A DNA stretch of 64,000 bases from positions 43,251,003 through 43,315,002 of the forward strand of contig CM055106.1 of assembly GCA_029204225.1 (NCBI GenBank), written 5' to 3'. The stretch comes from Diphasiastrum complanatum. Taxonomy: Eukaryota; Streptophyta; Lycopodiopsida; Lycopodiales; Lycopodiaceae. How positions within the stretch are numbered: the stretch's first letter is position 1; the number at the start of each line of letters is the position of its first letter. The notes beneath the pieces were generated by a model that did not search any database, was not told the origin of the DNA, and saw only the letters and a program-made list of their open reading frames with translations. The position numbers and the translations under genes are program-made. Of the stretch, positions 19,671 to 61,295 are shown in pieces.

Positions 19671-20434
19671 TACTTCATGACGTAGCCAAAAGCCAAACAC
19701 TAATATTGCAGGAGAACACCCTTAAGTCATTGTCACCTCCTACAAAGAACACATACAAACAGAAGCATTTGATGTTCTAAACTTATCTCACTTGGACCAA
19801 CAATAGTGGAAAAACCATAGTATGTTTGAGATTTTTGATTAGCTTTACAAAATATGATTTGCTACATCATCAAAATCATCCTCAGTGTCAATCAAATCAT
19901 CTTCTCTTACTTCGATTAGATCCTTTTTTTTTCTTAAGATCTATGTACAGAATCTAGGGCTTGTACTTTCATGGCTTCCTCTATCTTTTCATCTTCACTT
20001 TCCTCCCGAACAACATCAACTTGATTAGAAATTATCATGAGTGAGGGTGCTGGCGACACCATCTTTATCTCTTGCTTCGTCATCATATGAGCTGGATTAA
20101 CATCCTATTGTTGATTACAAACATCTTGAATTTCTTAAAAAAATGAGCTGATTTCATTATTAATTTCTTTGAAGGCATTATCGACAGTTGTTTTAATGTC
20201 TTTTCTACATAATGGCCAAATGCAAATAATTGCTTTCGCATTTTTTTAACCTTGTTTTTTGGATTATCTACTAAGTGAATTTGCATGTGGCAGCTAATGA
20301 GGATAGATTACCACATGCAAATTATTGCTTTTGCAATTCTTTTAACCTTGTTTTTCTAGATTTTTGTGCTAAGTGAATCTGCATGTGGTAGATAATGTGG
20401 CCATATTACTGCACACATGCAATTTTTTCTAGAA
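19671..20434 (-). repeat. Block U (left arm)
   Basis: Minus-strand copy of U. Also a nearly exact direct repeat of 36733-37493 at a constant offset of 17062 with no indels seen, so those two are very recent duplicates. Coding-like remnants are the same as in U copy 1, with stops. Confidence 0.7.
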
Positions 20435-21345
20435 TGTGCATGTGGCATGTGGCACCCATACATTGGCTCTCTAGATGCACATGAATTTACATGTTTTGTG
20501 TCAAATCTTTACTAGATGTCCACATAAGAGTTGTGGTGGGAAGGCTCACAAAAATCTGCTTCAAATTTTATATGAGATTTTTGCTCGTGGAGTTGCCTCC
20601 ATAATAAAAGGAAAACTAAACACTTGGCATTATGACTAGTGATATATATATTTAAGATTTAAAACCTTAATCTTTGGAGAAAATGGACCTCATGTAGCTC
20701 AACATAACATCTTAAGAAACCATAGAAAATTTTGAAATTGTGAAGTTCTATCTTCCTGAGTGGTCTATTTTTTGCACAATTCTTGGAAAAAGCTACATGT
20801 ATGCTAACTTACAATGAAGTATTCATGAATTTTAATTTTTTTAAATAATGATAGCTACATTCTCAACAAATCAAGAAAACTTAATCAATGTGTTATTGTT
20901 GTTGCTGTTGTCAATGTGTCACTTTATTGAATGGATTAACTATTATAGTCAAAGAAAACGTTTAGTAGTCATAGGATTTTAGAAGACAACATCTGAGTTG
21001 AAAGCTTTAGTTGACATTATGGTTCAAAACTCAACATACTCTCAAAGATGTAGTCTATCAAAGGAAAACTGAGGAGGTGTCCTAAACACAACAAACTTCA
21101 AAAGTTCAAGCCATAAAACTTGTGGTGAGGTCAAAAAGTCAAATTCTTCTTCAAATAGGACAACCATAAAATCGGACTGTTAGTTTTTATCAATAGTCTC
21201 AGGTCCCTTTATGGACTCAATGTGACGGGACAAAGAATCTTCATTTTAACACAACCTTCATGATGAAGGTTGCATAAATTGAACAATCTTATGTGCAAAG
21301 GGTTGTTCAAATAATAATAATAATAAATCTCAAATTCGAATTTCA
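20435..21345 (-). repeat. Block V (left arm)
   Basis: Inverse of 18754-19670. The two V blocks face each other across about 0.8 kb of U and form the core of a smaller inverted repeat. No gene. Confidence 0.7.
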
Positions 21346-23718
21346 CATTGGATAAGGGCCTCTTCTCAGCCCTTTAGTCAAGATATCAGCCAACATACTG
21401 TCAGTCGGACAATAACTTAACTTAATCTCAGAGAAAATGAATTTTAACTTCGATGTGCTTAGTTCTGGAGTGAGTTTGTGGGTTCAGAGATAAGCAATAC
21501 AGCTCTGAATGTCGCAATAGAGTCTAGTTTCATGTGTATATACATAACAACAATTCACGAGTATATGTAAGAGGGGACTATGATGAACACACGTGCAAGT
21601 GGAGAAGAGTGAATCAGAGTTCTTGCGTGGACCCCATTGTGTCTTAACTATTTCATTCCATAGAATCAGAGATATATGAGAGAGTTAAAGTCATTCAAAA
21701 AATAGAGATACTTATGAAATTTGTAACTAGCCAAGTAAAACCATTCTTGGACACAAGATCGTGATCTGATCGTTGTATTTACAATAGCCTAATTCAAATT
21801 CTCTATATTCTTATGTGTATTCTACTACGAATGCTTTCTGATAATTTTCTTTCTCAATTGACACTCACTCAATTCGGAATGTCTAATCTCGAAGGAAGCA
21901 TGGTTGTCTCAGACACCTAATTGTTTTCTGCTCCCTTCATGGTTGTCTTTGACACCTACCAGACATTCCTCCATTTGATCTAAGTCAATGTTGATGCTAT
22001 AGTTTGGTAAAGCTGATCATGTTAAAGTTCTCTATGTTGGAGTTGTGTTTCTAATTTCGCACTTAATTTCTTCGAGAGCTCTCCAACAAGTAGTTGCGAC
22101 ATATTTGGACTCTGTGGAAGACAAAGAAATGCATTTCTGCTTTCGACTATTCCATGAAATGGGTCCTCCTACTAGACAGCGAAGCTAGCCAGACGTGGAA
22201 CTTTGTGTGTCCACATTACCGGCCCAATCAAAGCCGGAATAAGAAGGTAATGTTAGAGTGTCCTCTTAGTTTTCATTATAACATAGACGCTTGAATGTAT
22301 CTTAATACTCTTAGTAGAGCTTGTGCCAATGTGCTAACTGCATAGGCAAGATCGGGTCGTGTGCAAACCATGGCATACATGATCGATTCAACTATCGATT
22401 GATAGGGGTATTTGCACATCTCCTTCTTCTCTGCTTTAGTCGTTGGCACATGTCCTTCGATAGTTTGAATCCAAGATGCATATGTGCAGTCTATCGACTT
22501 GTAGTTTTCCATGCCATATCTGTAGAGTACATTGGTTAGACACCTTTCTTGGCTTATTGTGATACTTATGTTTACTCTTTCTTTGGTTATCTCGATTCCA
22601 AGAAGGTAATGTATACGGCTTGAATCGGTCATTTTGAATTCCTTCCACAATAGCAACTTTGTCTCATGAAGTAACTGATTCAAATTGTTGATGATCAAAG
22701 AGTCATCAAAATATAGAGCTATTATGACATAGCTTGAGCCTCTGTGTTTGAGATAAATATTAGAGTCAGCAGATTTAGGAATGAAGTCGTGCTGCAACAA
22801 GGATCGATTGATTCTATTGAACCAGGCCCTGGGAGTTTGCTTTAGCCCATAGAGAGCTTTTTGCAACTTACACACTTTGAGTTGCTAGATGTAGATATCT
22901 TCTTATATGTATCCATTCAGAAAAGCAGTCTGAACATCCATCTGGTGAACTTCTAGATCTTCGGCATCTGTGATAGCAAGTAAAGACCGAATTGACTGAA
23001 GTCTTACAACTGGACTGAAAGTCCATGTGTAGTCAATTACATAGGTTTGTTCATATCCTTTCACGACTAGTCGAGCTTTCCATTTGTCTATCAAACCATG
23101 TGGATTGAGCTTGAACCTGAAGATCCACTTAGTGTCGATAATCTTTGCATTAGGAGGAGCTTCAACAAGACACCATGTCTTGCTCTTCATCAGAAAATTA
23201 TACATGCATGACAGTGTGTCAGTTGTCTGCATTCGAATTTGACAATGCTTCTACTACTAAGGTAGGTCCGTCATAACTGATGAATGCCTAAGGGATGTAA
23301 CGATCAAGCTCTTGTCGACGTTGGGCAGATCTTCGAACAAAAGTCAGTTGCTGAGATGATGATTCTCCTTGTTGTGCGACATAGGTATCTTCAATTGTCG
23401 GAACAGTTGTAGGTCGAGGCCTTTCGATGGTGATGGGAGTTGTTGGAACTAATTCTTGCATTGGCTGCTTCTACTTGAAGTCGTAGAATTTGTCTTCAAG
23501 GAAAACAACATCTAGACTGCTGACTGAGATGCGGCTTGACTCAACATCATAGATTCGACAAGCTTTGTGTGATGTCGAGTATCCAATGAAGATACTCCTG
23601 CAGCTGAAAGGGTCAAGCCTCTTTCTCAAATCAGAAGGAATCTACACATAACCAAGATAGCCAAACACGCGAAGGTGCTTTAGACTTGGTTTGTAGGCAT
23701 GGAAGATTTTGAAGTAAG
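21346..23718 (-). pseudogene. Copia-A copy 2: integrase C-term, RT and RNase H
   Basis: Minus strand, 5' to 3' from 23718. Order: integrase C-terminal region (SIFIGYSTSHKA, LDVVFLEDKFYDFK), linker, RT (22903-23232: DTKWIFRFKLNPHG, KARLVVKGYEQT, HQMDVQTAFLNGYI), stop codons, RT continued (22276-22875: CKLQKALYGLKQTPRAWF, then the YFDD active site at 22702-22713), connection region (TRPDLAYAVSTLAQ), RNase H to 22089, a truncated LTR-A insertion (21528-22088), and the RNase H end (21346-21527). The RT catalytic motif is kept, but stops and a 28-base deletion between the RT halves (relative to the 40-kb copy) make it inactive. Confidence 0.9.
21528..22088 (+). mobile_element. LTR-A insertion remnant (left arm)
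   Basis: Corresponds to the 3' half of the LTR at 17396-18472. It runs from TTTCATGTGTATATAC to CCAACA (22083-22088). The CT tract, the LTR start and part of the adjoining RNase H have been deleted. The same deletion is present in the right arm at 59161. Confidence 0.8.
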
Positions 23719-24660
23719 TGTAGAACACCTCAATAGACAGGTGTCAGTTCTACCAACAAAGTGCACAACAGTACTCAAATTCACAAAGGTTAAAGAAACT
23801 CAAAACTCGAACGATTCGATTCGCGAAATTGAGAAGCTTGAACATGAACTCGAACAAATAGTTGTTGTGAAACTATCGTGAACAATTTCTTGTTCAAACT
23901 TTAAGCTCAAAGCTCGAAATTATCACAAACTCAAACTATTCGCGAATTTGACTCGAAAGATCAAGAAGACTGTCGCGAAGCAGAAACTGTCAAAGATACT
24001 GTCGCGAACAAAATATTGTCATGAATCTTTTGTGAAGAGCAAATCTGTCATGAATAGAAAATCATTCAAGAATCTTTCGCGAATCTTTCGAAAATCTTTC
24101 GACTCTAAGAAACCAAAACGGTGTTGAATATCAACCGTCAAAACGAATGGATTCTGTTACAGAAGGAAAAAGGCCAAAGGACATATCTTGTAACCATGTC
24201 TCAAAAGAAGACTGTTGCGAAGCAGAAACTGTCAAAGATATATCGTGAACAAAATATTGTCACAAATCTTTCGAGAACAGCAAATCTGTCATGAACAAAG
24301 AATCTTTCAAGAATCTTTTGAGAATCTATCGTGAATCTTTCAAGAATCTTTTGACTCTAAGAAATCAGAATGTTGCTGAATATTTTTGAGAATCTTTCAA
24401 GAATCTTTCGATTCAAAATGTATATCGATGCATACTCAGAATTATAAAAATTTGTTTTTTGATGAAAGTTTTAGTCGTTTATCTGATTATCTAATTGTTT
24501 ATCACATAGTCTATCACATTCACGCATAATTCAATCATAATAGAACTACTCTATTGATACATAGATCTAATTCAGGCATGATTAAAACGCTGATATTGGT
24601 GTGATTTATTCAACCTCTAATTGTGTTCTCTGAGGAAGAATTCGCAAAACTTTTCCTACA
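23719..24660 (+). mobile_element. Solo LTR-C in integrase (left arm)
   Basis: 942 bases, TGTAGAACACC...CCTACA. Flanked by gtaag (23714-23718) and ggaag (24661-24665), a 5-base target duplication with one mismatch. Rich in degenerate words such as AATCTTTCAAGAATCTTTCG. It lies opposite to the host integrase. Compared with the copy at 41681 the TATAAATA segment is missing. Confidence 0.85.
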
Positions 24661-26000
24661 GGAAGTTCTTGGATCGACTACTTTGATGCTTGAATAGTTT
24701 TGTAGATAGCGAGCTATTGAAACTGCTTCAGCCCAAAAATTCTTGGGGAGCTGAGCATTTGACGACATTGATCATGCTACATTAAGTAATGTTCAGTTCT
24801 TCCTTTTGGCTACTCCATTCTGCTTTGGTGTGTAGCTGTTGGTGAACTGATGATGAGTGTCTCATGAGGATAGGTAGTCAGACATTTCGTATAACAAGAA
24901 CTCTCCACCACTGTTTGTACGCAGGGTCTTGAATCTTTGACCAGTCTGTGTCTCAACAAGTTGCTTGAATTCTTTGAAACGATTAAATGCCTCAGACTTG
25001 TTCTTAATGAACATAATACTGGTGAATCTTGAACAATCATTGATAAAAGTGAATAAATATAGTGCTGAACCCAAAAAGGGAATACTCATAGGGCCACACA
25101 AATGACTATGTATCAATTCTAAAATGGACTTAGGTCTAGTGGCTTGTCCCCTTGGAAATCTCGATCTAGGTTGTTTGCCTAGTAGGCACATCTCACAGAC
25201 ATCTCTACAGGCAGTTCTTGGGTCGACTACTTTGATGCTTGAATAGTTCTGTAGATAGCAAGCTGTTGAAACTCCTTCAGCCCAAAAATTCTTGGGGAGC
25301 TGAGCATTTGACGACATTGATCATGCTGCATTAAGTAATGTTCGGTTCTTCCTTTTGGCTACTCCATTCTGCTGTGGTGTGTAGCTGGTGGTGAACTGAT
25401 GATGAGTGTCTCATGATAATAAGTAGTCAAACATTTCGTCTAACAAGAACTCTCCACCACTGTTTGTACGCAGGGTCTTGAATCTTTGACCAGTCCGTGT
25501 CTCAGCAAATTGCTTGAATTCTTTGAAACGATTAAATGCCTCAGACTTGTTATTAATGAACATAATACTAGTGAATCTTGAACAGTCATTGATAAAAGTG
25601 AATAAATATAGTGTTGAGAGGGAATACTCATAGGGCCACACAAATGACTATGTATCAATTCTAAAATGGACTACCCTCTAGTGGCTTGTCCCCTTGGAAA
25701 TCTTGATCTAGGTTGTTTGCCTAGTAGGCACATCTCATAGACATGTGAAATGTTAGTGGAGGCAACATTAATATTTAGATTCTTGATACTATTATGATGC
25801 ATATACAAGATAGATCTCATGAGCATTTGAAGTACTCACATTAAGTGCATATTCATGACTCAAAATGTACAAATTGCCTTCTCTCTTTTCAGAGAGGACT
25901 TTTTTACAATTCTTATCCAAAATAGTACATTGTCAACTTGAACAAGGCTCTACAGCCCTGACCTGCAAGCTTGCTTACTGATAGTAAATCTTTGTCAATT
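24661..26000 (-). pseudogene. Copia-A integrase with internal tandem duplication (left arm)
   Basis: Minus strand. From about 26000: GAG-pre-integrase (YALNVSTSNAQLWHQ type), zinc finger, core, then a second complete copy of the segment from CEMCLLGKQPRSRF to SSIKVVDPRT. The repeat unit is about 540 bases (24666-25207 and 25208-25749). The junction includes a few bases of the LTR-C start (TGTAGA), so the duplication followed the LTR-C insertion. All three catalytic positions are substituted: HSHLCGP for the first Asp, RTNSGG for the second Asp, GVAKRKN for the Glu. Frameshifts are also present. Confidence 0.88.
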
Positions 26001-26285
26001 TGGGTACAAAAAATACATCCTTAAGCAAGGTCAATTCACAATTTAGAAGATGAAGGCCAAAGTTCTTTTTCAGTGAGTATCATCTTTATTTTGAAATTCC
26101 ACATGTGGAATTCATCACCGTTGAACTTATTGAACAAAAAATTTTCTGAAGATGTACCTTCCATGATAAATGATCTAACAAATTGTGAAGATAGTCTTGA
26201 ATACTAATAACAGTCTGGAACGATAGTTTTGATACCAACTTGTTGAGTTCCTACTAGTTTGATGCCAACTAGTTGGTTTGTATTA
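26001..26285 (-). pseudogene. Copia-A gag remnant (left arm)
   Basis: Minus strand. Short gag start (MEGTS, then DEFHMWNFKIK-like in a shifted frame) joined to the pre-integrase region (LLKDVFYVPK-like) by a large deletion that removed most of gag and the protease. The same deletion is present in the copies at 40 and 54 kb. Confidence 0.7.
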
Positions 26286-26296
26286 CTCTGATACCA
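26286..26296 (-). promoter_or_regulatory. Primer binding site, Copia-A (left arm)
   Basis: TGGTATCAGAG on the minus strand, 3 bases inside the LTR end. This matches the start of the plant initiator Met tRNA primer site and marks the adjoining LTR as the 5' LTR. Confidence 0.85.
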
Positions 26297-26299
26297 GCT

Positions 26300-27340
26300 T
26301 GTTGGATTTCTTGTATGTATGCGGAAGGATAAGAGCGAATTGAATATGCAAATTATAATAGGATCTTTACCAAACTATAGATTTAGACTATAACTCAGAT
26401 CAACTGGAGGAATATCTTGTAGGTGTTAAAGACAACCATGAAGGGAGCAAAACAGTTAGGCGTCTAAGACAACCATGCTTCCTTCGAGATTGGATATTAT
26501 GAGCGACTCGTGGAGTGAATATCAGTGAGCAAGAGAGAAATTATCAGAAAGCATTCATAGTGGAGCACACATAATAAAATAAATAATCTGAATTAAGTTG
26601 TTGTAAATACAACAATCAGGTCACGATCATGTGCCCGAGAATAGTTCACAGTAATATAGTGCACTTTGTGTTGTAATCTTACTATGCTAGTTAACGATTG
26701 AATACTATCTCTACTTCTTGAATTACTTGCCCGAGAATAGTTCATACGCTAGTTAACGATTGAATACTATCTCTACTTCTTGAATTACTTTCACTCTCTC
26801 TAAAATCTCTGATCCTATGGAATCAGATAATTCTTATACAATGGAGTTCATGAAAGAACTCTGATTCACACTTCCACTAATAAACTCTTCTTCATCATCA
26901 TTATCATCACCATCCTTAGTGTGTTGTTGTTATGTATATATACATGTAACAGTTATAGAAATTGTGTGGGCAACGAGCGTGAAGTAATGTAGTTACCGCA
27001 AAGTACTAAAATGAACTGCGACGTGGTCTGTGTCAGACAATGCGGAGGAAGAGCTCCATTTTGAATGGTAACATTTGACGAGCGTCGAAGATATCAAGCA
27101 AGTCGAGTCGACTGGCTCGCCCTTGAGAAGATGTCGATGTCGACGAAGTCAAGTCGGTAAAGTCGATGACGTGAACGTCGACAAAGTCGATCCTGCTTCT
27201 ACTTCAAGTCGGTGTATTGCACAGACTGTTCGACTTGTGTGAGTAAGATTGGGTGTTGCTGTAGAGAAAGAATACGTACATAGTATACAGGTGCTCATGA
27301 ATTGAATTCAGGTGAGTCAGAGTGAAGATTAACTCCAACA
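26300..27340 (-). mobile_element. Copia-A 5' LTR (LTR-A, left arm)
   Basis: 1041 bases, minus strand, TGTTGGAGTTAATCTTC at 27340 to CCAACA near 26300. A tandem duplication of about 60 bases (a phrase like TAGTTAACGATTGAATACTA) lies near 26690-26791; it is also in the right arm but not at 40.1 kb. There is no CT tract in this LTR-A subtype. A TATATATAC box lies near the middle. Confidence 0.88.
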
Positions 27341-27893
27341 TAATGTCCATGTCGATAGCTAGTGATGGAAGTTGCCACGTGGCACATGCAATTTTGTCAA
27401 CATATGCATGTGCCATGTGGTAACTCATCATTTGTCATCCACATGCACATTTTGTTGTGATTTTCTTTGCTACGTGTCAAAAATTTTCTGGTTGTCCACA
27501 TGAGAGTTGTGGTGGGAAGGCTCACTAGAAATCTACTTGTGGAGGTGCCTCTAGACTAGAAAGGAAAACTGAATACCTAACATTAAAGGAACAAGCTAAA
27601 ATCTTCATGATTTATTGAGAGTTGAGAATTAGATAGAAATTAATTTTTTGAAATAAAAAGCTATTGTGAATGGGCATTGATTTGTCTTATCCAAAGCACA
27701 ATGATTTAATGACTCTAAAGACACTTTCTTATCTATCCGTCATTGATGATAGTGATCTATTAGTGAAAGAAGAGTGATTTGACTCTTTTAGTTTGACATA
27801 TCACCTTTTTACACTTCAAAGTCTTAGTTAAATATATGTAGAGGTGTGATATGACCTTTCTAAACTTTGAAGTCAGGTATATAAAACCTATTT

Positions 27894-27928
<35 letters not shown>

Positions 27929-27970
27929 TTATATGTATGTACATATACAGACACCCACATATGTACATAT

Positions 27971-28004
<34 letters not shown>

Positions 28005-28649
28005 TTATATGTATGTATGTATAAACACACCCACATATGTACACATACACACACACACACCAGCCCATTGATATGTATGTATGTATAAACACACCCAGAT
28101 ATGTACATATGTGGGTGTGTTTATACATGTTTATTGCCATTTCAAAATAGTACACACTAAAGGAAAATGGCATAATTTGCAATGGTCCATTCACTAAGAT
28201 TTGTCTTGTGACAGTTGCGAAACAGACAAGAGCTGATTACATGCCGCAAAGAGCTACCTACAACAATCACCATTGTGGAAGAGCAATAGCTTAAAATACA
28301 ATTCATTAAAATTTGTGTATAGACTCATTCATTCAATAAATGAAAGCCCAAGTTGGGCATCAGTACATGTATTCAAGGCTCCTACACTGAATAATATGGA
28401 GCTGCATTTTATATATACGTATATATTTTCCTATCAATTCTATACATTTTGCTTCTTGGTTTCCAAGGGGAGGCTCGAACCTGGGACCAAAGAAACTTTT
28501 GGACATACATATAAATGTGTTGGTGTGTGTGTGTGTGTGTGCGTACGCATGTGCACGCCGTTCTACACTTCAAACCCTTAGAGGAATTGACTTTTCAAAA
28601 TGACATATGATCTTTCTAAACATTCAAGTCAAATATATAAAACTTATTC
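27341..28649. repeat. Block W with TG/CA minisatellite (left arm)
   Basis: Inverse of 52021-53335. Holds a segment (27440-27600) distantly similar to one in block V (CCACATGAGAGTTGTGGTGGGAAGGCTCAC). The CA minisatellite at 27898-28130 is built of the ~60-base unit. Unremarkable AT-rich DNA lies at 28190-28500. A short TG run with CGTACGCATGTGCACG lies near 28520-28560. No gene supported. Confidence 0.7.
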
Positions 28650-28845
28650 ACACACACGCACGTGTGTGTGTGCGCGCACACCCACACACACACCAACGCA
28701 TTTATATGTATGTATATATACAAACACCCACATATGTACACATGTGGGTGTACGTATGTGGGTGTGTGTATCTATACATACATATCAATGTGTTGGTGTG
28801 TGGGTGTGGGCATGGTTGTGGGCATGTGCGTGTGCGTGTGCGTGT
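28650..28845. repeat. TG/CA palindrome 2
   Basis: Same organisation as 1529-1736: CA side, ATGTATGTATATATAC, CCACATATGTACACATGTGGG centre, then the TG side, ending GTGTTTTATTTGATAAATGC. The G-rich tail is shorter than in copy 1. Confidence 0.88.
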
Positions 28846-30487
28846 TTTATTTGATAAATGCTTGGAGGTCTATGCAAGATTTTGATTTATGAAATATCTT
28901 TTTTAAAATTTCTACAAGTAACAAGACAACACAAGGTGGGTGGACACTTCATTCACAAGTTTCTATATTATTGGAGATGGCTCCATATTTCAAGAGATTT
29001 GATCTCATATTAGATTGACCACAATCTTTCATTTATTATAAGTTTCGATGGAAAAGTATCCAGAAGAATTGCAACTTTTTGGACAATTGACATTTTGAAA
29101 TATTAGAGTAACTACAGGTTGAACTTGAGTTGGAGCTTCTAGAATTTTGCTCTACATTTGGCAAAATATTTTGTCTACAGACATATTATGAATCTGATTC
29201 TAAATCAACTTTAATAGTCATTTTCACTCAATAGATAATGTTTCTTGTGTGCATTAAGAAACCTTTAAGCCTCTAATCAATCACTGCTTCAAAAAGGGTC
29301 TTGGTAGGAAATGTCCACACCCAAGATTTCTCTCCTTGGATTTTAGCTTTACACATACCAAAAAAACACCATACAACATCTATTGAGATGTAAAGAAGCC
29401 ATGCATTCTAACAATGAGCAATGACTAATTCGACATGTGTTCAAGAATGATCAAGAACATAGTTGCCAGTCCAAAGTTTACCTTAAGTATCATACCCATT
29501 TTCGAGCTGAAATCAAGGTGCTGATGATAAAAGTTATTAGTGAATTTGGAAACCTGATGATTAGAATAATTTTTTGATGAAAAACTCTAAGTTTTCAACA
29601 AAAATATCAGCACCTCTCTTCCAACCTTTGCCAGTCCTACTGAGCATTCCAAATATAATGGTTTTTTTATCAAGGAGTTTGGGAAGAGTTAATTCCATTA
29701 GAATGTTTGCAATAAAGATTGTTTCTTCAAAATATTCGTTTTAACCCTCGCCAACAAGCTGAATTTTGTTTTCAATTTGCCAAAAGAACCGTCACCTGAC
29801 CTACCATATATCTATTTTTGTCAAATCTATCTCCAGTCAGACGAGCGAAGTTAGTTTTTCAAATTTGTCCGAAACAACCATTTAAGTGAGTTTTTGTTAA
29901 AATCCAAAATAGTAATTGTGAACCCTCGCTAAGCTAACACTCGTACTCACTTTTACTTCAATCATGTCTTCCTCTACTGAAATTGATAGCTCTGCATCAC
30001 CCAAATGCCGCATAAGCGTGATGTTCCTACTGAGACGAGCATCATGGCTTTGGCTACCACTGAATTAGTGGTGGAATGGTTAACCCTTGCTGAGCCCTTG
30101 CTCAAGGCGATGGGCAACCATTCACCATTGTATCCACAAACAAAATCAATATGGAGTCTATAAGTATGGCTTTTGACACTTGGGATGAGGCCAAGGCGAA
30201 GTTTCATGTTAAGTACCAAGGTGTAGTGCACAAGGTGCGCGTGACTGAGGCCGCCCTTGTTGTTGTAGGGATAGTTTCTGGCCCTAGGTCCAATCCATCT
30301 CATAAGGTGGGCCATATTGTTATTAAGCCTTTCCTAGACACGCGTGTGACTCAATTGTAACCAATGAATATGGCTACCTCATTGAAACCTGCATATTGGA
30401 TTATGTAATCGAAGTTGCTGCCAATCTTTTGAACCACTTCCTTATGGTGGGCAACCTGTGCAGGAGAGGGTTGCATTTTTTTTCTTT
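28846..30487. repeat. Block M copy 2
   Basis: Direct duplicate of 1737-3381, including the short frames MPHKRDVPTE (from about 30004) and MESISMAFDTWDEAKAKF (30151-30360). The inner edge of the inverted-repeat arm (30346) cuts through it, but the sequence continues without a break into the GRP-2 upstream region, so this side is the undisturbed one. Confidence 0.75.
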
Positions 30488-31291
30488 TTGAGAGAGAGAG
30501 AAAGAGAGATGATTATTTAAATCATATGTTTCATGTATTCACTTTAGTGCCACACTTCGTAATAAGAGTGTGGGTGAACTAATTTGAGTAATGTAACTAC
30601 ATTTCAATTACTATTTTTGATTCGTAAAATTAATTTTTCTCTTTCTACAAAGAAAATGGAGGCGCCTCCTTGTGTGGAATTTGAGTGACTCCCATTTCTT
30701 TTATTATCAAAAGGTGCATGTAAAAAATATTTACCTTTTGTTACGTGTATCTTTTGATTGGAATGTGGATGTAAAAAAATTATGAAAATAAAGGTTAAAA
30801 AGAAAGGAAAAGATATTTTAGTCTCGAGGAAGATCCGCATCCTTGATTGTTCCATGGTAGGAGGGACCTTCTGCCTTAGGCTACCATTCTTGGATGAAAG
30901 CCCTTCCTCACCAACACGTCCTCGGATGCATATGGGGGACCTCCACCCGCGCCCTGTCAAGTAGAGATTCCATTTGAGAGGAGTGCATTTGAGTCCCCCC
31001 AAGCTGTGAAGATGCGAATGCCAATAGTCCTTAGACAAAAAAGAGTGGAAAGTCCTTGAAAAGATATTTTAGTGTCGAGGAAGATATTTGAGTGGAAAGG
31101 CCTTGAAAAGATATTTTAACGTCTCCTTGCTATGCTAGATCTGGTGTATCAACTGCGCCTCAAGCCCCAGATGATGATGATTCATCGAGAATTTTGTGTA
31201 TTGTAGGGCCAGAAGATCTAGACAATTAGGTTGTGGAGTCTTAGTGGAGCAGCCTGGAGGAAAATGCAGCAAGCGAGACCGAGCGAGGTGG
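30488..31291 (+). other. Upstream region of GRP-2
   Basis: Short GA tract, then the same upstream sequence as GRP-1 with the GGAGGCGCCTCC palindrome and two GTGGAAAG..TTGAAAAGATA phrases. Near 31130 there are about 16 bases that GRP-1 lacks (CTTGCTATGCTAGATC) and that GRP-4 and GRP-5 have. No gene. Confidence 0.5.
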
Positions 31292-31299
31292 TATAAATT
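31292..31299 (+). promoter_or_regulatory. TATA box of GRP-2
   Basis: TATAAATT, 129 bases before the first ATG of the intact gene. Conserved in all four copies that keep a 5' end. Confidence 0.6.
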
Positions 31300-31420
31300 A
31301 AGCTCTAACTCTCGACTAACATTATCAGTCAGGCTTTTCAAAGGATTATAGCATCTCAAGTCGACGAGCCAATATCTGATCAATTTCTGTAGTATTGTTT
31401 ATGAATCTGTTGAATCTTTC

Positions 31421-34560: not shown

Positions 34561-34571
34561 ACGGATCCGGG

Positions 34572-48183: not shown

Positions 48184-48203
48184 GCTCCTCGGCAACAGCA
48201 CCA
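48184..48203 (-). promoter_or_regulatory. Primer binding site of Gypsy-G
   Basis: Minus strand TGGTGCTGTTGCCGAGGAGC, 4 bases from the LTR end. It resembles the tRNA-Asp-type site of plant Ty3/gypsy elements (TGGCGCCGTTGCCGGGGA) with several C-to-T/G-to-A changes, as expected of methylated DNA decay. Confidence 0.7.
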
Positions 48204-48207
48204 AAAT

Positions 48208-49610: not shown

Positions 49611-50216
49611 CCACAATCTAGCATGCTAAGAATCAGAGAATGATAGCTTTACTTTGAAGAGAGTAAAAGTACAAGAATTTAGTGTATGAGCATTAGTCTC
49701 AACACGAATTAGAGAGAGAAAGAGAGAGAGAGATATTCAAGCAAAATATGGTATACATCCAAAATGGCATGGAATAGTTACAAAGCTTTGGTTCTTCATA
49801 AAAAATTATGAGAATAGCTACACATATTTCTGGAGTTTGAGGTAGCTCGAGGTAGAACCACATCCATCCACCTTTCAAATACATCTAAAGTGAAAACTAG
49901 AGTCTAAGTGACATTTGTCACATCTCCTGCATGTATCTCTACCTACTTTTTCCAAGTGTCCTATTTCTAGCTAGAATTGTACAAATCATCATGCATGTGT
50001 CCATTTGACTTTGTGCATGCCTTGCATGTCACTATGGATCACTTACAATAAATGCATGTGCTATGCCACGAGTTTCTACAAGCATATTAATGCTCTTTCT
50101 AAGTCTACAATCTATATGCAAGTTGTATTCTACCAACTAGATATGATAAATCCATATAGCTCGAGTTCCATCTAGGCCAAATTTGGCATTTACATTTATG
50201 AAACAACATACTTGCA
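49611..50216. repeat. Block X copy 2
   Basis: Inverse of 8342-8880 with about 90 extra bases near 50010-50100. Short GA-rich tract at 49709-49733. No gene. Confidence 0.7.
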
Positions 50217-50280
50217 TAGTAAGAAGTTTGTAGCAAGCCTAAATTCAAGATAGATGATTTTCATTTTCAACATAGTCCTC

Positions 50281-50324
50281 TGTGTGGCCCTATGAGTATT
50301 CCCTCTCTAGGTTCAACACTATAT
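50281..50324 (+). pseudogene. 44-base Copia-A integrase filler
   Basis: TGTGTGGCCCTATGAGTATT followed by the next 24 bases of the Copia-A integrase (coding for the CGPMSIPSLGS region). It stands alone, six bases before the inner edge of the right inverted-repeat arm. Looks like filler copied in during break repair. Confidence 0.8.
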
Positions 50325-50329
50325 GTTAT

Positions 50330-51837
50330 CACGCGTGTCTAGGAAAGGCTTAATAACAATATGGCCCACCTTATGAGATGGATTGGACCTAGGGCCAGAA
50401 ACTATCCCTACAACAACAAGGGCGGCCTCAGTCACGCGCACCTTGTGCACTACACCTTGGTACTTAACATGAAACTTCGCCTTGGCCTCATCCCAAGTGT
50501 CAAAAGCCATACTTATAGACTCCATATTGATTTTGTTTGTGGATACAATGGTGAATGGTTGCCCATCGCCTTGAGCAAGGGCTCAGCAAGGGTTAACCAT
50601 TCCACCACTAATTCAGTGGTAGCCAAAGCCATGATGCTCGTCTCTGTAGGAACATCACGCTTATGCGGCATTTGGGTGATGCAGAGCTATCAATTTCAGT
50701 AGAGGAAGACATGATTGAAGTAAAAGTGAGTACGAGTGTTAGCTTAGCGAGGGTTCACAATTACTATTTTGGATTTTAACAAAAACTCACTTAAATGGTT
50801 GTTTCTGACAAATCTGAAAAACTAACTTCGCTCGCTTGACTGGAGATAGATTTGACAAAAATAGATATATGGTAGGTCAGGTGACGGTTCTTTTGGCAAA
50901 TTGAAAACAAAATTCAGCTTGTTGGCGAGGGTTAAAACGAATATTTTGAAGAAACAATCTTTATTGCAAAAATTCTAATGGAATTAACTCTTCCCAAACT
51001 CCTTGATAAAAAAACCATTATATTTGGAATGCTCAGTAGGACTGGCGAAGGTTGGAAGAGAGGTGCTGATATTTTTGTTGAAAACTTAGAGTTTTTCATC
51101 AAAAAATAATTCTAATCATCAGGTTTCCAAATTCACTAATAACTTTTATCATCAGCACCTTGATTTCAGCTCGAAAATGGGTATGATACTTAAGGTAAAC
51201 TTTGGACTGGCAACTATGTTCTTGATCATTCTTGAACACATGTCGAATTAGTCATTGCTCATTGTTAGAATGCATGGCTTCTTTACATCTCAATAGATGT
51301 TGTATGGTGTTTTTTTGGTACGTGTAAAGCTAAAATCCAAGGAGAGAAATCTTGGGTGTGGACATTTCCTACCAAGACCCTTTTTGAAGCAGTGATTGAT
51401 TAGAGGCTTAAAGGTTTCTTAATGCACACAAGAAACATTATCTATTGAGTGAAAATGACTATTAAAGTTGATTTAGAATCAGATTCATAATATGTCTGTA
51501 GACAAAAATATTTCTACTTGCCAAATGTAGAGCAAAATTCTAGAAGCTCCAACTCAAGTTCAACCTGTAGTTACTCTAATATTTCAAAATGTCAATTGTC
51601 CAAAAAGTTGCAATTCTTCTGGATACTTTTCCATCGAAACTTATAATAAATGAAAGACTGTGGTCAATCTAATATGAGATCAAATCTCTTGAAATATGGA
51701 GCCATCTCCAATAATATAGAAACTTGTGAATGAAGTGTCCACCCACCTTGTGTTGTCTTGTTACTTGTAGAAATTTTAAAAAAGACATTTCACAATCAAA
51801 ATCTTGCATAGGCCTCCAAGCATTTATCAAATAAAAC
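50330..51837 (-). repeat. Block M (right arm)
   Basis: Inverse copy of 28846-30346. The MESISMAFDTW frame is 50319-50525 on the minus strand. An in-frame 113-residue run on the plus strand (50361-50702) exists in both arms but is low in recognisable content and taken as a shadow. Confidence 0.72.
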
Positions 51838-52020
51838 ACGCACACGCACATGCCCACAACCATGCCCACACCCACACACCAACACATTGATATGTATGTA
51901 TATATACACACACCCACATACATACACCCACATGTGTACATATGTGGGTGTTTGTATATATACATACATATAAATGCGTTGGTGTGTGTGTGTGTGCGCG
52001 CGCACACACACACGTGCGTG
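51838..52020. repeat. TG/CA palindrome 3
   Basis: Inverse of 28650-28845. The centre here is CATACACCCACATGTGTACATATGTGGG. Flanked by alternating CG/CA with GCGCGCGC at about 51996-52003, a strong candidate for left-handed (Z) DNA. Confidence 0.88.
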
Positions 52021-53335
52021 TGTGTGAATAAGTTTTATATATTTGACTTGAATGTTTAGAAAGATCATATGTCATTTTGAAAAGTCAATTCCTCTAAGGG
52101 TTTGAAGTGTAGAACGGCGTGCACATGCGTACGCACACACACACACACACCAACACATTTATATGTAAGATTGATTCAAAATGTATAGAATTGATAGGAA
52201 AATATATACGTATATATCAAATGCAACTCCATATTATTCAGTGTAGGAGTCTTGAATACATGTACTGATGCCCAACTTAGGCTTTCATTTATTGAATGAA
52301 AGAGTCTATACACAAATTTTAATGAACTGTATTTTAAGCCATTGCTCTTCCACAATGGTGATTGTTGTAGGTAGCTCTTTGCGGCATGTAATCAGCTCGT
52401 CTTTTTCGCAACTGTCACAAGACAAATCTTAGTGAATGGACCATTGCAAATTATGCCATTTTCCTTTAGTGTGTACTATTTTGAAATGGCAATAAACATG
52501 TATAAACACACCCACATATGTACATATCTGGGTGTGTTTATACATACATACATATCAATGGGCTGGTGTGTGTGTGTGTATGTGTACGTATGTGGGTGTG
52601 TTTATACATACATACATATAAATGTGTTGGTGTGTGTTTGTGTACATATGTGGGTGTGTTTATACATACATACATATAAATGTGTGTGTGTGTGTGTGTG
52701 TGTGTGTACATATGTACATATGTGGGTGTCTGTATATGTACATACATATAAATGTGTGTGTGTGTGTTTGTATGTGTGTATAAAATAGGTTTTATATACC
52801 TGACTTCAAAGTTTAGAAAGGTCATATCACACCTCTACATATATTTAACTAAGACTTTGAAGTGTAAAAAGGTGATATGTCAAACTAAAAGAGTCAAATC
52901 ACTCTTCTTTCACTAATAGATCACTATCATCAATGACAGATAGATAAGAAAGTGTCTTTAGAGTCATTAAATCATTCTGCTTTGGATAAGACAAATCAAT
53001 GCCCATTCACAATAGCTTTTTATTTCAAAAAATTAATTTATATCTAATTCTCAACTCTCAATAAATCATGAAGATTTTAGCTTGTTCCTTTAATGTTAGG
53101 TATTCAGTTTTCCTTTCTAGTCTAGAGGCACCTCCACAAGTAGAATTTTGGTGAGCCTTCCCACCACAACTCTCATGTGGACAACCAAAATTTTTTTGAC
53201 ACGTAGCAAAGAAAATCACAACAAAATGTGCATGTGGATGACAAATGATGAGTTACCACATGGCACATGCATATGTTGACAAAATTGCATGTGCCACGTG
53301 GCAACTTCCATCACTAGCTATCGACATGGACATTA
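52021..53335. repeat. Block W with ~60-base TG minisatellite (right arm)
   Basis: Inverse of 27341-28649. The minisatellite at 52500-52790 has about five units, one more than can be counted in the left arm. The segment at 53100-53300 has CCACCACAACTCTCATGTGG and GTGCCACGTGGCAAC, similar to part of block V. No gene. Confidence 0.72.
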
Positions 53336-54375
53336 TGTTGGAGTTAATCTTCACTCCGACTCACCTGAATTCAATTCATGAGCACCTGTATACTATGTAC
53401 GTATTCTTTCTCTACAGCAACACCCAATCTTACTCACACAAGTCGAACAGTCTATGCAATACACCGACTTGAAGTAGAAGCAGGATCGACTTTGTCGACG
53501 TTCACGTCATCGACTTTACCGACTTGACTTCGTCGACATCGACATCTTCTCAAGGGCGAGCCAGTCGACTCGACTTGCTTGATATCTTCGACGCTCGTCG
53601 AATGTTACCATTCAAAATGGAGCTCTTCCTCCGCATTGTCTGACACAGACCACGTCGCAGTTCATTTTAGTACTTTGCGGTAACTACATTACTTCACGCT
53701 CGTTGCCCACACAATTTCTATAACTGTTACATGTATATATACATAACAACAACACACTAAGGATGGTGATGATAATGATGATGAAGAAGAGTTTATTAGT
53801 GGAAGTGTGATTCAGAGTTCTTTCATGAACTCCATTGTATAAGAATTATCTGATTCCATAGGATCAGAGATTTTAGAGAGAGTGAAAGTAATTCAAGAAG
53901 TAGAGATAGTATTCAATCGTTAACTAGCGTATGAACTATTCTCGGGCAAGTAATTCAAGAAGTAGAGATAGTATTCAATCGTTAACTAGCATAGTAAGAT
54001 TACAACACAAAGTGCACTATATTACTGTGAACTATTCTCGGGCACATGATCGTGATCTGATTGTTGTATTTACAACAACTTAATTCAGATTATTTATTTT
54101 ATTATGTTGCTCCACTGTGAATGCTTTCTGATAATTTCTCTCTCGCTCACTGATATTCACTCCACGAGTCGCTCATAATATCCAATCTCGAAGGAAGCAT
54201 GGTTGTCTTAGACGCCTAACTGTTTCGCTCCCTTCATGGTTGTCTTTAACACCTACAAGATATTCCTCCAGTTGATCTAAGTTATAGTCTAAATCTATAA
54301 TTTGGTAAAGATCCTATTTTAATTTGCATATTCAATTCGCTCTTATCCTTCCGCATACATACAAGAAACCCAACA
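53336..54375 (+). mobile_element. Copia-A 5' LTR (LTR-A, right arm)
   Basis: 1040 bases with perfect 6-base inverted ends TGTTGG (53336-53341) and CCAACA (54370-54375). TATATATAC at about 53733. Holds the ~60-base tandem duplication at 53884-53990 shared with the left arm. No matching 3' LTR-A of this subtype is seen after the RNase H. Confidence 0.9.
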
Positions 54376-54378
54376 AGC

Positions 54379-54389
54379 TGGTATCAGAG
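54379..54389 (+). promoter_or_regulatory. Primer binding site, Copia-A (right arm)
   Basis: TGGTATCAGAG, 3 bases after the LTR. Matches the plant initiator Met tRNA primer site. Confidence 0.88.
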
Positions 54390-56045
54390 TAATACAAACC
54401 AACTAGTTGGCATCAAACTAATAGGAACCCAACAAGTTGGTATCAAAACTATCGTTCCAGACTGTTATTAGTATTCAAGACTATCTTTACAATTTGTTAG
54501 ATCATTCATCATGGAAGGTACATCTTTAAAAAATTGTTTGTCAATAAGTTCAACGGTGATGAATTCCACATGTGGAATTTCAAAATAAAGATGATACTCA
54601 CTGAAAAAGAACTTTGGCCTTCATCTTCTAAATTGTGAATTGACCTTGCTTAAGGATGTATTTTATGTACCCAAAGTGACAAAGATTTACTATCAGTAAG
54701 CAAGCTTGCAGGTCAGGGCTGTAGAGCCTTGTTCAAGTCGACAATGTACTATTTTGGATAAGAATTGTAAAAAAGTCCTCTCTGAAAAGAGAGAAGGCAA
54801 TTTGTACATTTTGAGTCATGAATATGCACTTAATGTGAGTACTTCAAATGCTCAATTATGGCATCAAAGATTAAGCCACTTAAACATGAGATCTATCTTG
54901 TATATGCATCATAATAGTATCAAGAATCTAAATATTAATGTTGCCTCCACTAACATTGCACATGTCTATGAGATGTGCCTACTAGGCAAACAACCTAGAT
55001 CAAGATTTCCAAGGGGACAAGCCATTAGAGGGTAGTCCATTTTAGAATTCATACATAGTCATTTGTGTGGCCCTATGAGTATTCCCTCTCAACACTATAT
55101 TTATTCACTTTTATCAATGACTGTTCAAGATTCACTAGTATTATGTTCATTAAGAACAAGTCTGAGGCATTTAATCGTTTCAAAGAATTCAAGCAATTTG
55201 CTGAGACACGGACTGGTCAAAGATTCAAGACCCTGCGTACAAACAGTGGTGGAGAGTTCTTGTTAGACGAAATGTTTGACTACTTATTATCATGAGACAC
55301 TCATCATCAGTTCACCACCAGCTACACACCACAGCAGAATGGAGTAGCCAAAAGGAAGAACCGAACATTACTTAATGCAGCATGATCAATGTCGTCAAAT
55401 GCTCAGCTCCCCAAGAATTTTTGGGCTGAAGGAGTTTCAACAGCTTGCTATCTACAGAACTATTCAAGCATCAAAGTAGTCGACCCAAGAACTGACTGTA
55501 GAGATGTCTGTGAGATGTGCCTACTAGGCAAACAACCTAGATCGAGATTTCCAAGGGGACAAGCCACTAGACCTAAGTCCATTTTAGAATTGATACATAG
55601 TCATTTGTGTGGCCCTATGAGTATTCCCTCTCTGGGTTCAACACTATATTTATTCACTTTTATCAATGATTGTTCAAGATTCACCAGTATTATGTTCATT
55701 AAGAACAAGTCTGAGGCATTTAATCGTTTCAAAGAATTCAAGCAACTTGTTGAGACACAGACTAGTCAAAGATTCAAGACCCTGCGTACAAACAGTGGTG
55801 GAGAGTTCTTGTTATATGAAATGTCTGACTACCTATCCTCATGAGACACTCATCATCAGTTCACCACCAGCTACACACCAAAGCAGAATGGAGTAGCCAA
55901 AAGGAAGAACTGAACATTACTTAATGCAGCATGATCAATGTCGTCAAATGCTCAGCTCCCCAAGAGTTTTTGGGCTGAAGCAGTTTCAATAGCTCGCTAT
56001 CTACAAAACTATTCAAGCATCAAAGTAGTCAATCCAAGAACTTCC

Positions 56046-56968
56046 TGTAGGAAAAGTTTTGCGAATTCTTCTTCAGAGAACACAATTAGAGGTTGAGCAA
56101 ATCACACCAATATCAGCGTTTTAATCATGCCTGAATTAGATCTATGTATCGATTGAATTATGCGTGAATGTGATAGACTATGTGATAAACAATTAGATAA
56201 TCAGATAAACGACTAAAACTTTCATCAAAAAACAAATTTTTATAATTCTGAGTATGCATCGATATACATTTTGAATCGAAAGATTCTTGAAAGATTCTCA
56301 AAAATATTCAGCAACGTTCTGATTTCTTAGAGTCAAAAGATTCTTGAAAGATTCACGACAGATTCTCAAAAGATTCTTGAAAGATTCTCTGTTCATGACA
56401 GATTTGCTGTTCTCGAAAGATTTGTGACAATATTTTGTTCACGATATATCTTTGACAGTTTCTGCTTCGCAACAGTCTTCTTTTGAGACATGGTTACAAG
56501 ATATGTCCTTTGGCCTTTTTCCTTCTATAACAGAATCCATTCGTTTTGACGGTTGATATTCAACACCGTTTTGGTTTCTTAGAGTCGAAAGATTTTCGAA
56601 AGATTCGCGAAAGATTCTTGAATGATTTTCTATTCATGACAGATTTGCTCTTCACAAAAGATTCATGACAATATTTTGTTCGCGACAGTATCTTTGACAG
56701 TTTCTGCTTCGCAACAGTCTTCTTGATCTTTCAAGTCAAATTCGCGAATAGTTTGAGTTTGTAATAATTTCGAGCTTTGAGCTTAAAGTTTGAACAAGAA
56801 ATTGTTCACGATAGTTTCACAACAACTATTTGTTCGAGTTCATGTTCAAGCTTCTCAATTTCGCTAATCGAATCGTTCGAGTTTTGAGTTTCTTTCACCT
56901 TGATCAATTTGAGTACTGTTGTGCACTTTGTTGGTAGAACTGACACCTGTCTATTGAGGTGTTCTACA
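56046..56968 (-). mobile_element. Solo LTR-C in integrase (right arm)
   Basis: 923 bases, TGTAGG...TCTACA, flanked by cttcc (56041-56045) and cttac (56969-56973). Partner of 23719-24660. Confidence 0.87.
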
Positions 56969-58598
56969 CTTACTTCAAAATCTTCCATGCCTACAAACCA
57001 AGTCTAAAGCACCTTCGCGTGTTTGGCTATCTTGGTTATGTGTAGATTCCTTCTGATTTGAGAAAGAGGCTTGACCCTTTCAGCTGCAGGAGTATCTTCA
57101 TTGGATACTCGACATCACACAAAGCTTGTCGAATCTATGATGTTGAGTCAAGCCACATCTCAGTCAGCAGTCTAGATGTTGTTTTCCTTGAAGACAAATT
57201 CTACGACTTCAAGTAGAAGCAGCCAATGCAAGAATTAGTTCCAACAACTCCCATCACTATCGAAAGGCCTCGACCTACAACTGTTCCGACAATTGAAGAT
57301 ACCCATGTCGCACAACAAGGAGAATCATCATCTCAGCAACTGACTTTTGTTCGAAGATCTGCCCAACGTCGACAAGAGCTTGATCGTTACATCCCTTAGG
57401 CATTCATCAGTTATGACGGACCTACCTTAGTAGTAGAAGCATTGTCAAATTCGAATGCAGACAACTGACACACTGTCATGCATGTATAATTTTCTGATGA
57501 AGAGCAAGACATGGTGTCTTGTTGAAGCTCCTCCTAATGCAAAGATTATCGACACTAAGTGGATCTTCAGGTTCAAGCTCAATCCACATGGTTTGATAGA
57601 CAAATGGAAAGCTCGACTAGTCGTGAAAGGATATGAACAAACCTATGTAATTGACTACACATGGACTTTCAGTCCAGTTGTAAGACTTCAGTCAATTCGG
57701 TCTTTACTTGCTATCGCAGCTGCCGAAGATCTAGAAGTTCACCAGATGGATGTTCAAACTGCTTTTCTGAATGGATACATATAAGAAGATATCTACATCT
57801 AGCAACTCAAAGTGTGTAAGTTGCAAAAAGCTCTCTATGGGCTAAAGCAAGCTCCAAGGGCCTGGTTCAATAGAATCAATCGATCCTTGTTGCAGCACGA
57901 CTTCATTCCTAAATCTGCTGACTCTAATGTTTATCTCAAACATAGAGGCTCAAGCTATGTCATAATAGCTCTATATTTTGATGACTCTTTGATCATCAAC
58001 AATTTGAATCAGTTACTTCATGAGACAAAGTTGCTATTGTGGAAGGAATTCAAAATGACCGATTCAAGCCGTATACATTACCTTCTTGGAATCGAGATAA
58101 CCAAAGAAAGAGTAAACATAAGTATCACAATAAGCCAAGAAAGGTGTCTAACCAATGTACTCTAAAGATATGGCATGGAAAAATACAAGTCGATAGACTA
58201 CACATATGCATCTTAAATTCAAACTATCGAAGGACATGTGCCAACGACTAAAGCAGAGAAGAAGGAGATGTGCAAATACCCCTATCAATCGATAGTTGAA
58301 TCGATCATGTATGCCATGGTTTGCACACGACCCGATCTTGCCTATGCAGTTAGCACATTGGCACGAGCTCTACTAAGAGTATTAAGATACATTCAAGCGT
58401 CTATGTTATAATGAAAACTCAGAGGACACTCTAACATTACCTTCTTATTCCGGCTTTGATTGGGCCGGTAATGTGGACACACAAAGTTCCACGTCTGGCT
58501 AGCTTCGCTTTCTAGTAGGAGGACCCATTTCATGGAATAGTCGAAAGCATAAATGCATTTCTTTGTCTTCCACAAAGTCCAAATATGTCGCAGCTACT

Positions 58599-59161
58599 TG
58601 TTGGAGAGCTCTCGAAGAAATTAAGTGCGAAATTAGAAACACAACTCCAACATAGAGAACTTTAACATGATCAGCTTTACCAAACTATAGCATCAACATT
58701 GACTTATATCAAATGGAGGAATGTCTGGTAGGTGTCAAAGACAACCATGAAGGGAGCAGAAAACAATTAGGTGTCTGAGACAACCATGCTTCCTTCGAGA
58801 TTAGACATTCCGAATTGAGTGAGTGTCAATTGAGAAAGAAAATTATCAGAAAGCATTCGTAGTAGAATACACATAAGAAAATAGAGAATCTGAATTAGGC
58901 TATTGTAAATACAACGATCAGATCACGATCTTGTGTCCGAGAATGGTTTTACTTAGCTAGTTACAAATTTCATAAGTATCTCTATTTTTTGAATGACTTT
59001 AACTCTCTCATATGTCTCTGATTCTATGGAATGAAATAGTTAAGGCACAATGGGGTTCACGCAGGAACTCCGATTCACTCTTCTCCACTTGCACGTGTGT
59101 TCATCATAGTCCCCTCTTACATATACTCGTGAATTGTTGTTATGTATATACACATGAAACA
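58599..59161 (-). mobile_element. LTR-A insertion remnant (right arm)
   Basis: Starts TGTTGG in RNase H and runs to TATATACACATGAAAC. It then jumps to RNase H (GACTCTATTGCGAC), with the CT tract and LTR start deleted. Same deletion as at 21527. Confidence 0.82.
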
Positions 59162-59340
59162 AGACTCTATTGCGACATTCAGAGCTGTATTGCTCTATCT
59201 CTGAACCCACAAACTCACTCCAGAACTAAGCACATCGAAGTTAAAATTCATTTTCTCAGAGATTAAGTTAAGTTATTGTCCGACTGACAGTATGTTGGCT
59301 GATATCTTGACTAAAGGGCTGAGAAGAGGCCCTTATCCAA

Positions 59341-60260
59341 TGTGAAATTCAAATTTGAGATTTATTATTATTATTATTTGAACAACCCTTTGCACATAAG
59401 ATTGTTCAATTTATGCAACCTTCATCATGAAGGTTGTGTTAAAATGAAAATTCTTTGTCCCGTCACATTGAATCCATAAAGGGACCTGAGACTATTGATA
59501 AAAACTAACAGTCCGATTTCATGGTTGTCCTATTTGAAGAAGAATTTGACTTTTTGACCTCACCACAAGTTTTATGGCTTGAACTTTTGAAGTTTGTTGT
59601 GTTTAGGACACCTCCCTCAGTTTTCCTTTGATAGACTACGTCTTTGAGAGTATGTTGAGTTTTGAACCATAATGTCAACTAAACCTTTCAACTCAGATGT
59701 TGTCTTCTAAAATCCTATGACTACTAAACGTTTTCTTTGACTATAATAGTTTGCCCATTCAATAAAGTAACACATTGACAACAACAACAACAATAACACA
59801 TTGATTAAATTTTCTTGATTTGTTGAGAATGTAGCTATCATTACTTTAAAAAATTAAAATTCATGAAGACTTTATTGTAAGTTAGCATACATGTAGCTTT
59901 TTCCAACAATTGTGCAAAAAATAGACCACTCAGGAAGATAGAACTTCACAATTTCAAAATTTTCTATGGTCTCTTAAGATGTTATGTTGAGCTACATGAG
60001 GTCCATTTTCTCCAAAGATTGAGGTTTAAAATCTTAAATATATATATCACTAGTCATAATGCCAAGTGTTTAGTTTTCCTTTTATTATAAAGGCAACTCC
60101 ACGAGCAGAAATCTCATATAAAATTTGAAGCAGATTTTTGTGAGCCTTCCCACCACAACTCTTATGTGGACATCTAGTAAAGATTTGACACAAAACATGT
60201 AAATTCATGTGCATCTAGAGAGCCAATGTATGGGTGCCACATGCCACATGCACATTCTAG
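59341..60260 (+). repeat. Block V (right arm)
   Basis: Follows the RNase H end. TTA run at 59361-59378, CAACCTTCATCATGAAGGTTG near 59417, CAA run near 59776. No gene. Confidence 0.7.
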
Positions 60261-61295
60261 AAAAAATTGCATGTGTGCGGTAATATGTCCTCATTAGCTG
60301 CCACATGCAGATTCACTTAGCAACAAAATCTAGAAAAACAAGGTTAAAAAAATTGCAAAAGCAATAATTTGCATGTGGTAATCTATCCTCATTAGCTGCC
60401 ACATGCAAATTCACTTAGTAGATAATCCAAAAAACAAGGTTAAAAAAATGCGAAAGCAATTATTTGCATTTGGCCATTATGTAGAAAAGACAATAAACAA
60501 CTACTGATAATGCCTTGGAAGAAATTAATAATGAAATAGACTCATTTTTTGAAGAAATGCAAGATGTTTGTAATCAACAATAGGATGTTAATCCAACTCA
60601 TATGATGACGAAGCAAGAGATAAAGATGATGTCGCCATCACCCTCACTCATGATAATTTCTGATCAAGTTGATGTTGTTCAGGAGGAAAGTGAAGATGAA
60701 AGGATAGAGGAAGCCATGAAAGTACAAGCCCTAGATTCTCTACATAGATGTTATGAAAAAAAAAGGACCTAATCGAAGTAAGAGAAGATGATTTGATTGA
60801 CACTGAGGATGATTTTGATGATGTAGCGAATCATATTTTGTAAAGCTAATCAAACTTTCAAACATACTATGGTTTTTCCACTATTGTTGGTTCAAGTGAG
60901 ATAAGTTTAGAACATCAAATGCTTCTGTTTGTATGTGTTCTTTGTAGGAGGTGACAATGACTTAAGGGTGTTCTCCTGCAATAGTAGTGTTTGGTTTTTG
61001 GCTAAGACATGAAGTACATCTAATGTGAATTCTACACCAAAGATAGCTAGCGAGTGTGATTCTCGTGTACTATTCATCAAATCAAAAGAGTTCATGTGTC
61101 ATTCTTTTCTGACATTGGCTCCTACTCTTCAACATACTCTTGTGTCTCAGTTGTCTCTACTTGGTCTCGTAGTTCAAAATCTTCAATGATTTTGATAAAT
61201 TTTTTGACAATGTATTTGTATTGTTTCCGAAAGTGTCTTTTGTAGGATGTATACAAAATCTCTTTCATATATTCGATGAAGAATTAATCGACTTG
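60261..61295 (+). repeat. Block U copy 4, fused to GRP-5
   Basis: Same exon-like acidic remnant as at 16 kb (MMTKQEIKMMSPSPS, VQEESEDERIEEAMKVQ, then EDDLIDTEDDFDDVANHIL after a poly-A run one base shorter than in copy 1). The inverted-repeat homology ends at 61016, but U continues to about 61295, where it joins GRP after GACTTGT. Confidence 0.65.

Follow-up and report, generated by a model that had tools for sequence, protein, structure and literature searches.

Rearranged retrotransposon and gene-flank DNA in a probable recent inverted segmental duplication within a segment cluster of Diphasiastrum complanatum

An inverted repeat found in Diphasiastrum complanatum most probably arose by a recent segmental duplication, in inverted orientation, of ~10 kb of retrotransposon and gene-flank DNA that had been rearranged beforehand; it lies within a one-chromosome cluster of related segments. 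It is contained in a window of 64,000 nucleotides (the whole stretch analysed, C15:43251003-43315002, from a genome of 1.74 Gb in 5,176 contigs), whose features are collected in Table 1. By an inverted segmental duplication we mean inverted copies of at least 1 kb with at least 90% identity that are not merely one transposon. Here, the two arms align over 10,593 paired columns with 187 substitutions, and the duplicated block crosses several internal junctions that are common only to the arms in the sequence sampled. Judged from the assembled sequence, the arms are sisters over 20432-30346, where they are 98.5% identical. The inverted repeat is real and of a familiar kind, and evidence for a new mechanism is absent.

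The earlier note had described the arms as reverse complements over their full length, and had proposed a self-comparison of the window and a count of arm differences among its checks. BLAST of the window against itself recovered the inverted repeat as three collinear inverted matches, 19671-25821/61016-54885 (97.7%), 25820-28110/54854-52580 (97.7%), and 28506-30346/52167-50330 (98.3%), with paired coordinates summing to 80687 at the outer end and to 80676 at the inner end. When the arms were aligned whole, the 187 substitutions divided into 119 transitions and 68 transversions, accompanied by 17 gaps, the biggest of which (54 bases) lies inside a simple-repeat tract. Reverse complementarity was thereby borne out and the whole 10.7 kb aligns, but the outer 0.76 kb of the left arm is not sister to the right arm. 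The peptide difference reported earlier, AITDAEDLEV (22903-23250, minus strand) against AIAAAEDLEV (57437-57784, plus strand), is also present. The window was without tRNA or tmRNA, and nothing in it matched Rfam at the gathering score.

Table 1. Features of the window, with coordinates counted from its first letter
Feature	Coordinates	Strand	Evidence or remark
Older inverted copy of 20433-21528, just outside left arm	18547..19655	+	91.7%, self-BLAST
Templated insert of 15 bases, left-outer edge	19656..19670	+	recurs at 20214-20228
Conversion-like tract, outer end of left arm	19668..20431	+	99.48% to 36730-37493; bins 94.0-96.4% to right arm
Left arm as first noted	19671..30346	+	97.7-98.3% inverted match to 61016-50330
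Sister core, left arm	20432..30346	+	1.53% from right arm: 150/9,834 columns differ
Copia reverse transcriptase remnants (RVT_2), left arm	22276..23250	-	PF07727, E 2.2e-26 and 9.4e-27
Tandem duplication of Copia integrase sequence	24656..25744	-	24656-25202/25205-25744 at 93.4%; also at 54962-56050
Copia integrase remnant (rve)	24862..25320	-	PF00665, E 0.0006; 20.5 bits, below curated cut-off of 32.6
Internal junction common only to the two arms	26699..26774	+	254-kb sample and genome search
Segment P, inner end of left arm	28674..30346	+	left arm: goes on towards gene G; right arm: truncated at 50330
Spacer, many rearranged pieces of the same cluster	30347..50329		e.g. 30490-34010/3448-6936
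Glycine-rich gene G, open frame of 293 codons	31352..32233	+	hydrophobic stretch at N-terminus, judged by eye
Closest copy of the 19668-20431 tract, within spacer	36730..37493	+	self-BLAST and bin scan
Right-inner edge, CAC common to Copia integrase fragment and segment P	50330..50332	+	compared by eye
Right arm as first noted	50330..61016	-	self-BLAST and end-to-end alignment
Gene G copy fused to segment X	61183..62094	-	frame crosses join 61296/61297

The Ty1/copia content of the arms is evident from the RVT_2 family (PF07727) in the left arm, and the tandem duplication that the earlier note had seen in both arms does occur in both. Five zones of the left arm, namely 21501-21556, 24168-24219, 25176-25220, 26699-26774, and 28100-28527, are crossed by the right arm alone in a 254-kb sample of the cluster, in which matches break at the borders of the 10-kb pieces. 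The junction at 26.7 kb was searched across the genome, where two of the 72 listed matches span it and these two are the arms (best 40 of 1,811 candidates scored); the other four zones were assessed in the 254-kb sample only. These junctions, crossed only by the two arms in the sequence examined, support copying of the block after it had been rearranged, in agreement with the order of events proposed in the earlier note.

The left arm was divided into 43 bins of 250 bp, each of which was compared with the window and with 20 neighbouring 10-kb pieces, 19 of them readable and one all N. The right arm was the best partner of 35 bins and another copy that of five, three being unscorable. All five exceptional bins lie at the outer end, where three group with 36730-37493 and two with a copy from 15479-15729 onward; the latter two (20668-21167) reach 99.6 and 98.0% to that copy versus 96.5 and 97.6% to the right arm. 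Since the outer bins are nearer to other copies than to the right arm, the sister core starts near 20432. Treating the whole 10.7 kb as sister arms is ruled out, as the outer 0.76 kb groups with 36730-37493. Across the 9.9 kb of the core, the scored bins share 96.5-99.6% with the right arm, some of them, including three near the inner end, reaching 99.6%; the highest identity to any other copy lies between 90.7 and 99.6%, depending on the bin, and surpasses that of the right arm in just two bins. Elsewhere in the cluster, a second inverted pair, 43972304-43975053/44010631-44007901, shows 98.5% identity along 2.75 kb and is bordered on one side by less similar sequence (94.5% over 3.3 kb and 93.8% over 0.47 kb). 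Gene conversion would be the simplest reading of both the 0.76-kb and the 2.75-kb tracts, a patchwork of separate copyings being the alternative, and recombination between copies seems to be ongoing in the cluster. Recombination, which the earlier note had expected of such a structure, fits these tracts when it is taken as recombination among paralogues, but the clearest tract joins the left arm to a third copy and not to the right arm.

The other cluster copies served as outgroup and allowed 118 of the 150 differences in the core to be polarised, of which 54 are derived in the left and 64 in the right arm; of the remainder, 15 had split outgroups, 15 were without an outgroup, and 2 fitted neither. 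The derived base of 36 of the 118 polarised differences is found in some other copy too, so that conversion or repeated mutation contributes to the differences. C-to-T changes were biased towards CG and CHG, with changed versus unchanged sites amounting to 15/354 at CG, 15/395 at CHG, and 24/2816 at CHH (chi-square 37.8, p 6e-9). Such a pattern is expected from CG and CHG methylation, as in silenced plant transposons, and decay of this type is in keeping with the remnants of Copia reverse transcriptase and integrase that the arms contain. The same bias rules out that the arm differences stem from sequencing error. As read from these substitutions, both arms have since gathered mutations of the type left by methylated cytosines, and this decay supports the earlier note's view that the arms are two distinct sequences. 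Plant substitution rates lie between 1.3e-8 and 2.5e-9 per site and year, at which a divergence of 1.53% would place the duplication at about 0.6 to 3 million years ago, an overestimate if methylation raised the mutation rate.

One end of each arm continues as other copies do: the left arm extends beyond its inner end, from segment P towards gene G, and the right arm extends past its outer edge like 15916-16946 and 36456-37493. The cut ends are the outer edge of the left arm and the inner edge of the right arm, the latter within P at 50330, so that neither arm can simply be taken as the copy of the other. A genome search with 50230-50430 gave one match out of 40 that spans the edge, 18 that end at 50332, and 21 that start at 50330 or up to 10 bases to its right (best 40 of 747 candidates scored). 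Similarly, one of 40 matches to 19560-19770 spans the edge, with 29 ending at 19655 and 10 starting at 19668 (best 40 of 43 candidates scored). Among the scored matches, each cut edge is spanned at one place, and the pieces on both sides of it are repeated.

Both breakpoints that were read carry features of the kind left by repair. The CAC at the right-inner edge is a weak microhomology of 3 bp, read by eye and with no chance comparison, and the 15-base insert at the left-outer edge, which is found in full at three other sites (20214-20228, 37276-37290, and 60461-60475), has four exact matches in the window against a chance expectation of 0.00, the composite left-outer junction itself occurring once in the window. 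Short copied inserts and microhomology are traces of polymerase theta end joining or of replication template switching. The duplication was probably made by one of these routes, end joining or template switching. In our model, a broken or stalled DNA end would have copied the block in reverse orientation; to go by the two edges, rejoining might then have proceeded by microhomology or template switching, either in an MMBIR/FoSTeS-like manner or by polymerase-theta end joining, and later gene conversion involving a nearby copy may have overwritten the outer end of the left arm.

The inverted repeat is not isolated, as 256 collinear pairs of at least 1 kb (137 direct and 119 inverted) were found in the 254-kb cluster sample. 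Identity is below 90% in 77 of them, 90-96% in 175, 96-97.5% in one, and at least 97.5% in three. The inverted repeat is the longest of all pairs (10,292 aligned bases, 97.8%), the other two in the top class measuring 1,389 bp and 1,283 bp, the shorter of which, at 98.7%, exceeds the arms. Within the spacer, 35735-37493 and 39888-41924 match other places in the cluster. Just to the right of the window lies a compact palindrome (C15:43317414-43318802/43318976-43320359, L015) with 1.39-kb arms that are 97.6% alike and 173 bp apart, in a 10-kb piece of 48% G+C. Two further pieces, L032 and L033, are 99.5% alike over 2,492 bp though inverted and 2.35 Mb apart. The window also contains pure GA/CT runs of 86-141 bases at 3382-3467, 7553-7670, 18208-18348, and 35601-35707, the first of which sits at a segment border (3401/3448).

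The cluster multiplies a protein-coding gene and would be useful for asking how large genomes reshuffle gene clusters. Gene G matched no Pfam family at E 0.01. Genome-wide it is represented by 43 match pieces, of which 23 are on C15 (at 43.25-44.01 and 45.56-45.61 Mb), 14 on C21, two on C8, one on C4, and three on small contigs. Outside the cluster, gene G relatives form a group at C21:34.29-34.97 Mb, and those at C8:64001228 and 64038376, placed 37 kb apart in opposite orientation and with equal scores, are perhaps another inverted duplication. The C4 copy sits inside a 7.7-kb block, parts of which are 97.4-99.0% identical to pieces dispersed across the window and the neighbouring piece on its right, among them 14634-16946, 38765-39887, and 60267-62556. 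One gene G copy in the window is joined to segment X at 61296/61297, and its frame therefore ends in X-derived residues; the C4 block contains this stretch, join included, at 97.9% identity over 2,292 bp. The same join is also seen in the spacer (37494-38764), in inverted orientation. For six of eight retrieved copies of gene G, compared over their opening 150 codons, pN/pS was 0.76 when pooled over 15 pairs and 0.41 to 2.09 in single pairs, with very few changes; one copy of different length and one with its start unrecognised were left out, and the ratio says little.

Several other explanations were weighed against a recent duplication. The pair might be older and held alike by gene conversion between its arms, in which case the 1.5% would not date the duplication. 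This would be in line with the conversion-like tracts of the cluster (19668-20431/36730-37493 and the 2.75 kb at 98.5% beside 94%) and with the bins reaching 99.6%, three of them near the inner end. We nevertheless consider it unlikely, as the scored core bins remain at 96.5-99.6% throughout 9.9 kb, and the junctions common to the arms, one of which is arm-only genome-wide among the listed matches, are simplest to understand as the outcome of a single copying event. Very unlikely, in our view, is an assembly artefact in the form of a duplicated haplotype or a spacer misoriented between the arms. Although the region is rich in repeats, was judged from the assembly and not from reads, and has ~10-kb arms that could mislead an assembler on the orientation of the spacer, the sequences past the outer and inner ends differ between the arms. 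Furthermore, an assembler would hardly make the microhomology and templated insert at the edges, and 187 substitutions to 17 gaps, together with C-to-T changes biased to CG and CHG, are unlike read error; the orientation of the spacer is to be taken as provisional.

The arms could also belong to a functional inverted-repeat locus making hairpin RNA and siRNAs, a role that would be compatible with a segmental-duplication origin, and the CG and CHG decay does suggest methylated DNA. The size is near that of the soybean I locus, at which, as described in PMC6710647, chalcone synthase genes lie in two 10.91-kb inverted repeats separated by 5.71 kb. However, the arms studied here are broken retrotransposon sequence and hold no reading frame above 202 codons in the open-reading-frame list of the window, and a double-stranded RNA would need transcription through ~41 kb, including the 20-kb spacer, which makes such a locus highly improbable. 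CG and CHG decay is, moreover, expected of silenced transposons generally, and cruciform extrusion across a 20-kb spacer is physically unlikely. The cruciform and double-stranded RNA roles suggested in the earlier note are unsupported. Extremely doubtful, too, is an origin in which the duplication was made by a DNA transposon undergoing alternative transposition, or by a mobile element that carried the block as a whole: pieces of the cluster are also found on C4, and maize Ac elements are described as able to make tandem direct duplications (PMC3744419), but inspection by eye found no terminal inverted repeat or target-site duplication at the arm edges.

We thus favour a recent inverted segmental duplication. 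Instead of serving a programmed function, it is likely chiefly to promote more recombination between copies, of which flipping of the spacer would be an example; inversion of the spacer via arm-arm recombination is plausible. A broader and more tentative idea, for which our confidence is limited, is that the cluster might be a standing rearrangement hotspot, where repeated template switching and conversion cut, invert, and re-paste small blocks around the gene of a glycine-rich secreted-type protein, yield chimeric frames, and export blocks to other chromosomes, the inverted repeat being the latest large product.

In this well-preserved example, age order, breakpoints, and the conversion that followed can all be read side by side, and the locus shares traits with several known systems. 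Like the human inverted duplications with a disomic spacer for which a fold-back model was put forward, it has a spaced inverted copy and short features at its joins (PMC3907307). The human cases, as that source describes them, are large duplications in patients, whereas ours is interstitial, its spacer holds duplicated sequence, and its arms are cut at different ends. It also resembles mammalian sex-chromosome palindromes in having inverted arms amid signs of conversion; however, the palindromes are described as keeping an arm identity above 99% by arm-arm conversion (PMC8981503), while the arms here are less alike and the clearest conversion-like tract is shared with a third copy. With the soybean I locus, our inverted repeat has in common its setting on a plant chromosome, a similar arm length, and a segmental-duplication cluster prone to non-allelic recombination (PMC6710647). 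Yet the soybean arms, according to the same account, are identical, gene-bearing, 5.71 kb apart, and siRNA-spawning, in contrast to arms that are 98.5% alike, consist of broken retrotransposon DNA, lie 20 kb apart, and are known from sequence alone. The soybean I locus, as portrayed there, makes clear that gene-bearing arms of this size can be of consequence (PMC6710647).
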